From positions 1 to 37,735 of the forward strand of contig JAATGL010000088.1 in the NCBI GenBank assembly GCA_015654705.1: 37,735 nt of DNA, read 5' to 3'. Of the stretch, positions 8,027 through 9,452 are shown piece by piece. The stretch is from Alphaproteobacteria bacterium (GTDB taxonomy: Bacteria > Pseudomonadota > Alphaproteobacteria > Micropepsales > Micropepsaceae). The position numbers and the translations under genes were made by a program. Under the pieces are notes generated by a model that searched no databases, was not told where the DNA came from, and saw only the letters and a list, made by a program, of their open reading frames with translations. Every line of letters begins with the position of its first letter. Positions within the stretch are counted from its first letter, which is position 1.

Positions 8027-8220
8027 GAGGCGTGCGCGCCCATCCCGAGAGGTTCTACACGACCATCAAGGACGTGACGCGCGCCTATGGCCACGCGCTG
8101 GAGCGCTACACCAGCGCCATGCGCTTCGGCGAGGTCGACAAGGCCGACGAAGCGCTGGCCCGCATGCAGGAAATCGAGAACGGCGTAACGCTCATCGTGC
8201 GGCCGGAGGCGCGGATATGA
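8023..8220 (+). CDS. hypothetical protein (65 aa, GTG start)
   Basis: VRGVRAHPERFYTTIKDVTRAYGHALERYTSAMRFGEVDKADEALARMQEIENGVTLIVRPEARI; GTGA and ATGA overlaps on both sides. Confidence 0.65.
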   Translation: MRGVRAHPERFYTTIKDVTRAYGHALERYTSAMRFGEVDKADEALARMQEIENGVTLIVRPEARI

Positions 8221-9452
8221 ATGGCCGCGCCTATTACAACGAGTTCGACCCTTTCGCCGCCGACTGGCTCGAAGAACTCATCCGCGCCGGTCTCATTGCA
8301 CCGGGCGAAGTCGACAGGCGCAGCATCGTCGACGTCCTGGCCAGCGACCTGCGCGGATTTGTTCAATGCCACTTTTATGCCGGCATTGGACTCTGGAGCC
8401 TCGCCTTCCGCCTCGCCGGAATCCGCGACGACGAGCCCGCCTGGAGCATGTCCTGTCCCTGTCCGCCGTTCAGCGTCGCCGGCAGGAAGAAATTCTGCCC
8501 AGAGTGCCAGGGCGGCGACCTTATCGCGTGCCCTCGGCGAACTGGCTTCTTCCTATGCTGCGGATGCGGCCATGCATGGCTGGCCGATCCGCGACATCTC
8601 TGGCCGGAATCATGGCGCCTTATTCGAGACGCCAGACCCGATTGTCCAATCTATGGAGAACAGGTTGCGAGCCCGGATGGCCGCCTATGGCTCTCCGGTG
8701 TTCGCGCTTCGCTGGACCTCATGGCCTATGATGTATGGGCCGCCGATCTCTGCTCTGCGGGCGTCGGAAAAGACCATGTCCGGCAGCGTCTCGGCTGGGT
8801 GGCCTACCCCGATGGCTGGCTCACCGGGAACAGAGGATTACAACCCGGCCTGCAACACGGATTCATCGCGCAGGACGGAAGTTCTGCTCACAGGCTGGAA
8901 CACGCCGCGAGCAACCGACGGCAGCAACGGCGGTCCGCGCCAAGCAAACGGAGCATTGTCAGCGGATGCGGCGTTGGCCGGATGGATATCGCCGCAGATG
9001 GGCGATGCGATGCGCGGCGGCCAAGCGAAGCGATATCTGCACAGCAACCATGCAGTTCGGTTGAACGATCAGGTGATGATCCTGTCGCCATGGGCGGCGC
9101 CGACGACGCGGGACTGGAAGGACGGCGCCTCGTCTCTGGACAACACGCCGATCAATTCTCTGCTAGGGCATCAAGTGTCGCTATCCCGTGCAGCGACGGA
9201 AAATGGCGACGCGTCCCAGCCAACGCGCAAGGAGAGCCTGAATCCGCTCTTTTCCCTCTGGTTGATGGTCGGACCTTTCGCAATCGCGTGGGGATGCTGC
9301 GCGGAAGCGGTAACGCGATCGACCCGTTCGTCTGGGCGGAATTCATCCAGGCCTTCAGAGAAGGCCGCGCCATGAGCCCGATGGAATATCCGCTCTGGGC
9401 GGAGGACACAGCGATTTCAACCGATGTCGAGGGGAGAACAGCCGAACTATGA
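8217..9452 (+). CDS. phage DNA (cytosine-5) methyltransferase with a zinc-ribbon-like insertion
   Basis: HFYAGIGLWSLAFRLAGI (SAM motif), SCPCPPFS (PC motif), GEQVAS (ENV-like), DHVRQRLGWVA (QRxRW-like), RGSGNAIDPFV (motif X). ATGA overlaps with the genes on both sides. Confidence 0.85.
   Translation: MNGRAYYNEFDPFAADWLEELIRAGLIAPGEVDRRSIVDVLASDLRGFVQCHFYAGIGLWSLAFRLAGIRDDEPAWSMSCPCPPFSVAGRKKFCPECQGGDLIACPRRTGFFLCCGCGHAWLADPRHLWPESWRLIRDARPDCPIYGEQVASPDGRLWLSGVRASLDLMAYDVWAADLCSAGVGKDHVRQRLGWVAYPDGWLTGNRGLQPGLQHGFIAQDGSSAHRLEHAASNRRQQRRSAPSKRSIVSGCGVGRMDIAADGRCDARRPSEAISAQQPCSSVERSGDDPVAMGGADDAGLEGRRLVSGQHADQFSARASSVAIPCSDGKWRRVPANAQGEPESALFPLVDGRTFRNRVGMLRGSGNAIDPFVWAEFIQAFREGRAMSPMEYPLWAEDTAISTDVEGRTAEL
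8572..9375 (+). CDS. candidate overprinted ORF in the +1 frame of the methyltransferase gene
   Basis: ENRLRARMAAYGSPVFALRWTSW...GPPISALRASEKTMSGSVSAGWPTPMAGSPGTEDYNPACNTDSSRRTEVLLTGWNTPRATDGSNGG...SPWAAPTTRDWKDGASSLDNTPINSLLGHQVSLS...SLNPLFSLWLM; open to 9375 and protein-like. Translation unproven. Confidence 0.4.
   Translation: MHGWPIRDISGRNHGALFETPDPIVQSMENRLRARMAAYGSPVFALRWTSWPMMYGPPISALRASEKTMSGSVSAGWPTPMAGSPGTEDYNPACNTDSSRRTEVLLTGWNTPRATDGSNGGPRQANGALSADAALAGWISPQMGDAMRGGQAKRYLHSNHAVRLNDQVMILSPWAAPTTRDWKDGASSLDNTPINSLLGHQVSLSRAATENGDASQPTRKESLNPLFSLWLMVGPFAIAWGCCAEAVTRSTRSSGRNSSRPSEKAAP

Follow-up and report, generated by a model that had tools for sequence, protein, structure and literature searches.

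A probable split C5 methyltransferase with its recognition subunit encoded in a nested +1 reading frame

The C5 methyltransferase (C5-MTase) gene in the 37,735-nucleotide stretch of alphaproteobacterial DNA analysed here (the window) carries a second open reading frame, shifted by +1; this frame is a genuine overlapping gene and is strongly conserved. With a probability of roughly 0.86, the two frames together encode a naturally split C5-MTase, in which the +1 ORF is the TRD/motif IX subunit nested in the gene of the catalytic subunit. Alpha, the catalytic subunit with motifs I-VIII and X, would come from frame 0, and a second subunit, beta, consisting of tandem WPTP-type recognition cassettes and motif IX, from a separate start in the +1 frame; alpha and beta would combine into a single enzyme methylating phage or prophage DNA, with the beta cassettes as its putative DNA-reading parts. 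An earlier sequence-only reading of the window had drawn attention to the +1 frame, and the identity of its product, most likely the subunit that bears the TRD and motif IX of this MTase, is added here.

The two frames and their relatives

The features of both frames are collected in Table 1. Alpha contains motifs I, IV (PC), VI, VIII and X in order, and its stretch between VIII and X is Gly/Arg/Gln-rich and poorly conserved; across the aligned relatives, no conserved TRD and no motif IX were found there in frame 0, the cassettes and the motif IX-like LNP...WLMG lying in the +1 frame. The +1 peptides quoted in the sequence-only reading are all present in the window sequence. Its placement of the frame at 8572-9375 holds as regards the reality of the frame but not its start, since 8572 is a later ATG in a longer ORF that opens at 8221; the conserved part of beta begins at about 8572 and takes in the WPTP-type cassettes as well as a C-terminus resembling motif IX.

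Table 1. Positions of the features of alpha and beta in the window
Feature	Position	Strand	Remark
GGAGG, possible shared RBS	8205..8209	+	7 nt before alpha ATG (8217), 11 nt before beta ATG (8221); putative function
Alpha, C5-MTase catalytic ORF, frame 0	8217..9452	+	411 aa; motifs I-VIII and X; phrog_363, 2.9e-43
Beta, nested +1 ORF	8221..9375	+	384 aa; ATG 8221 to stop ending at 9375
Candidate beta start ATG	8221..8223	+	four bases after alpha ATG; predicted
ACG at the site of the internal beta ATG of relatives	8332..8334	+	window sequence
Alpha motif I, HFYAGIG	8370..8390	+	sequence
Alpha motif IV, SCPCPPFS, catalytic-type Cys	8451..8474	+	sequence and alignment of relatives
Alpha motif VI, GEQV	8655..8666	+	sequence and alignment of relatives
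Beta conserved segment, GSPVFALRWTSW	8689..8724	+	GSTLYTLTWK in relatives; beta-hairpin in low-confidence model
Alpha motif VIII, VRQRL	8778..8792	+	sequence and alignment of relatives
Beta tandem cassettes and following linker	8797..9237	+	TRD position of C5-MTase; putative TRD role
Cassettes GWPTPMAGS, GWNTPRATDG, GWISPQMGD, PWAAPTTRDWKDG	8797, 8893, 8980, 9088	+	beta frame
Beta motif IX-like, LNPLFSLWLMVGPFAIAW	9238..9291	+	sequence comparison
Alpha motif X, GSGNAI	9303..9320	+	frame 0, crossing beta C-terminus

Two particulars of alpha concern the window itself. In motif IV, PCP replaces the usual PCQ with the Cys retained, and after this motif lies a Cys-rich, zinc-ribbon-like insertion (FCPECQ...CCGCGHAW, 8493-8576), which is missing from the 15 other aligned relatives and gives only a weak Pfam match. 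Within the 3.0 Mb draft assembly, the sole match to this protein is on the window's own contig.

Relatives are numerous and widely distributed. At least 580 viral contigs and 199 loci in species-representative genomes match one and the same strict +1 pattern, and all 323 loci of the first scans have two ORFs in one register, including 158 fetched by MTase-frame queries; the same register recurs in nine phage records and in phage contigs down to 32-38% GC. Loci found with the window MTase are 32-56% identical to it (best segments), and 15 of 16 alpha relatives match PF00145, the sole family match of the window's own alpha being phrog_363 (DNA methyltransferase). The +1 frame matches phrog_27243 (1.5e-15) and phrog_31772, and its trimmed conserved part phrog_1008 (3.8e-9), so that the +1 frame belongs to a known, annotated phage family. 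The PHROG catalogue already holds both frames, as 363 (alpha) and 1008, 31772 and 27243 (beta), mostly labelled DNA methyltransferase; neither the catalogue labels nor the papers searched connect 363 with the other three as subunits encoded in overlap. Two further C-terminal patterns were used to look for WPTP genes standing alone, without an MTase; almost every gene retrieved overlaps an MTase, and the exceptions checked turned out to be split variants, loci with swapped frames, or contig edges.

Several loci depart from the common layout. Komagataeibacter phage phiKX1 (L001, 3293-3690) carries an HNH-like +1 insert between motifs IX and X with the MTase frame open, resembling the hidden HNH of ShiLan (PMC11855218). 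In Edwardsiella phage eiAU (L451, 710-2131) the +1 ORF lacks its own stop and continues, in frame, into a downstream N6-adenine methyltransferase gene. An E. coli prophage locus (L656, 741-1952) is given in RefSeq as two incomplete pseudogene pieces, the MTase ORF being intact at 404 codons and the +1 ORF at 343, and one viral contig (L383, 133-1952) bears a tandem pair of dual-coded MTase genes.

Constraint on both frames and the start of beta

Long shadow ORFs are frequent in GC-rich genes, and the window itself has an antisense ORF of 999 aa; the +1 ORF could accordingly be a by-product of GC-rich DNA under MTase constraint, with mis-called ORFs as its database relatives. This null was confronted with synonymous-codon shuffles within each gene, which preserve the MTase protein and its codon usage, in 61 non-redundant relatives fetched with MTase-frame queries alone. 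From codon 100 to motif X, the +1 frame contains 7 stops against 214.5 expected, whereas the +2 control frame is undepleted (661 against 618); +1 is fully open in 57 of the 61 genes, as compared with 196 of 6100 shuffled ones (3%), and four nested genes have +1 stops. Relatives with an intact MTase and a +1 frame full of stops, which would have spoken for a spurious ORF, are therefore not what selection by the MTase frame retrieves. In the window alone, none of 20,000 shuffles leaves +1 open across the whole overlap, and 177 of 20,000 leave it open from aa 118 onwards. A profile over a wider set of 123 genes, which mixed in loci picked by the +1 pattern and was repeated with MTase-selected loci only, places the stop depletion from about codon 45 to motif X.

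Synonymous sites follow the same boundaries, as conservation is present inside the overlap and near expectation outside it. The ratio of observed to expected synonymous codon identity is 1.03-1.15 over codons 1-50, 1.4-2.1 over codons 100-165 and up to 2.4 at the C-terminus, falling to 1.03 past motif X. Mismatch rates at frame-0 positions 1/2/3 run from 0.19/0.14/0.54 (codons 1-45) and 0.14/0.13/0.45 (codons 45-100) through 0.23/0.17/0.31 (codon 100 to motif VIII), 0.24/0.14/0.18 (middle) and 0.18/0.10/0.20 (around IX/X) to 0.23/0.20/0.40 in the tail. In codons 45-100 the constraint is mainly that of frame 0, which accounts for most of the +1 conservation there and is in keeping with the null. 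In the middle of the gene, also within the MTase-selected subset, the highest mismatch rate falls on the +1 wobble position, and the impression that the MTase frame is degenerate there and the +1 frame conserved is borne out by the three-decimal rates (0.237/0.144/0.184, set against those of codons 1-45). Frame 0 in turn has zero stops in the middle against 553 predicted by +1-preserving shuffles, a count that shows only an open frame as far as motif X because the genes were chosen for a frame-0 motif X. GC3 is 0.73-0.87 in the other genes of the window and 0.69 before and 0.59 after motif VIII in the MTase gene, where, past motif VIII, position 1 (the +1 wobble base) has the highest GC, 0.70.

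The second frame is thus open beyond shuffles with an undepleted control, and the synonymous reduction is confined to the overlap; at the level of sequence, these patterns show both frames to be under purifying selection. The null is further contradicted by relatives on contigs of 32-38% GC, which keep the overlap with a gene GC of 0.43-0.48, above that of their own contig, and by split variants in which beta exists without overlap in its second half. Stop depletion, frozen synonymous codons, the internal start considered below and the better +1 conservation in the middle together support the true overprinting that the sequence-only reading had envisaged, and leave the null with a negligible share of the probability.

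In most relatives beta likely begins at an internal ATG marked by Shine-Dalgarno enrichment. Upstream of motif I, 87 of 138 genes have a +1 ATG at one particular Asp codon, formed where GAT precedes a G; the GAT share at this Asp is 77%, compared with 20-60% at the other nine Asp columns examined. In 52 of the 87 cases the internal ATG is preceded by a Shine-Dalgarno match of at least 4 nt, against a background of 13%, and AGG is used at the upstream Arg in 39 of 136 genes (29%) against 9% gene-wide. Because some relatives, like the window (Table 1), lack the internal ATG, beta starts would differ among lineages.

This internal start also bears on a ribosomal frameshift within alpha, which would join motifs I-VIII, cassettes and IX in a single chain. 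Such a product finds precedent in one-frame actinophage ORFs and in three loci (L077, L565, L507) where a single frame contains I-VIII together with cassettes and IX. However, the +1 constraint starts upstream of motif VIII, which a shift after VIII leaves unexplained, a shift before VIII would drop catalytic motifs, and the enrichment of an internal ATG with a Shine-Dalgarno sequence argues for separate initiation. The frameshift product proposed alongside overprinting in the sequence-only reading is consequently not required, and appears very improbable.

Natural variants and the identity of beta

The +1 proteins share a segment of the form GSTLYTLTWK..TP.GR, followed by one to several W.TP cassettes and then by LNP....WLMG.P..W, the cassettes and the latter element occupying the TRD and motif IX positions of a C5-MTase. 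The motif IX resemblance of the beta C-terminus was tested on three sets of natural variants.

In split variants (L461/L562, L584, L576, L609), alpha ends soon after motif VIII, and beta has not only cassettes and IX but also its own motif X (RLKAIGNG or RIKCIGNG); in two loci of the L461/L562 type (L573/L574) the alpha frame is interrupted by 15-19 stops past motif VIII. The split form is also present in sequenced isolates, namely mycobacteriophage Wile (gp75/gp74) and Gordonia phage Float294 (gp62/gp61). In the one-frame form, represented by Seagreen gp68 and at least 24 related actinophage ORFs, motifs I-VIII are followed in the same frame by LPTP cassettes, IX and X. Profile comparisons connect these forms: the nested family A1 matches the split beta with an hhalign probability of 97.6 (E 2.8e-12), A1 and A4 match Seagreen gp68 with E values of 6e-6 and 5e-8, and phrog_1008, which matches the window beta, also matches gp68 in its C-terminal half (6e-79). 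As judged by sequence comparison, the cassettes and IX of beta are shown to be homologous to TRD-IX-X segments that other phages carry either within a stand-alone beta gene or within a continuous MTase frame, and motif IX falls on a second predicted polypeptide, as in a split C5-MTase.

Frame-swapped metagenome loci (L077, L369, L457, L565, L507), in which cassettes or IX follow I-VIII without a change of frame and motif X is read in the other one, were set aside as possible assembly indels, though they may be real variants. In one-frame actinophages (L657-L714), a +1 ORF with cassettes persists upstream and, at most loci, stops just short of the first in-frame cassette; at many loci the distance to the first in-frame LPTP is about three codons, despite differing cassettes, and a -1 frameshift junction joining this +1 ORF to the in-frame LPTP cassettes is possible.

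The model of one one-frame ORF (L696) is that of an M.HhaI-like C5-MTase; it reached a pTM of 0.75 and matched M.HhaI at E 2.4e-15 over 384 columns, judged by score and span, with pLDDT 84-96 in the IX/X part and 33-58 in the cassette region; owing to this low cassette pLDDT, the TRD role of the cassettes rests on position and architecture. The beta-alone model (pLDDT 63, pTM 0.25) gave no PDB match and no meaningful Foldseek matches and was dropped as too weak to assign a fold. Pfam, NCBIfam and PDB sequence searches with beta returned no identity, and the C-terminal part of the one-frame ORFs is likewise unrecognised in Pfam and PDB sequence searches.

With no match for the beta-alone fold, and an N-terminal region of about 60-100 residues that resembles nothing known, beta might be an independent protein outside the MTase, such as a regulator, an anti-restriction protein or a mobile element. 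Against this, the split and one-frame variants put the same cassettes and IX directly before MTase motif X, and an independent role is therefore considered unlikely. The assignment of beta as the TRD/IX subunit follows from this same ordering of cassettes, IX and X as in one MTase. A further proposal, to which about even odds are given, is that the tandem cassettes of the nested subunit are exchangeable, so that swaps would change the methylation target while the catalytic frame is kept open, and specificity would evolve by dual-coding module exchange.

Relation to known systems

The nested MTase is a long dual-coding gene and a very widespread one, and its functional subunit has been missed because annotation usually gives one frame, the other, or broken pieces. 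If the split-enzyme reading is true, many phage MTases assayed as a single ORF would seem inactive or wrong in specificity, and the nested, split and one-frame forms offer a natural series for studying the origin and separation of overlapping genes. No paper describing the MTase/+1 overlap was found in the open-access literature, most subscription papers lying outside this scope, where an earlier description is possible. What appears to be new is the breadth of the arrangement, the quantified constraint on both frames, the occurrence of tandem cassettes in a nested frame and the series from nested through split to one-frame forms; two-polypeptide C5-MTases as such are already known from M.AquI and M.EcoHK31I.

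The small polypeptide of M.EcoHK31I is encoded within the large gene in another frame. In the multi-specific C5-MTases of Bacillus phages (SPR, phi3T type), the region between motifs VIII and IX contains recognition modules of about 40 aa that are arranged in tandem and can be exchanged; these enzymes would share such modules with beta, but are single chains in one frame. As described in PMC3404938 (citing Lee et al., 1995), M.EcoHK31I has motifs I-VIII and X on its large and IX on its small polypeptide, both of which are needed. Compared by that description, it is like the nested form in the division of motifs between polypeptides, while its TRD has been placed in the large subunit, in contrast to the TRD-position cassettes, often in tandem, of the nested frame here. 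M.AquI, with I-VIII on the large subunit and the distal variable region, IX and X on the small one (PMC3404938), resembles the split variants and differs from the fully nested form, in which motif X lies in the catalytic frame. The ShiLan domain, a hidden out-of-frame HNH in a phage methylase whose own frame is kept open (PMC11855218), likewise combines out-of-frame coding with a phage DNA methylase; ShiLan, however, is a mobile HNH insert, whereas beta would be part of the enzyme itself.
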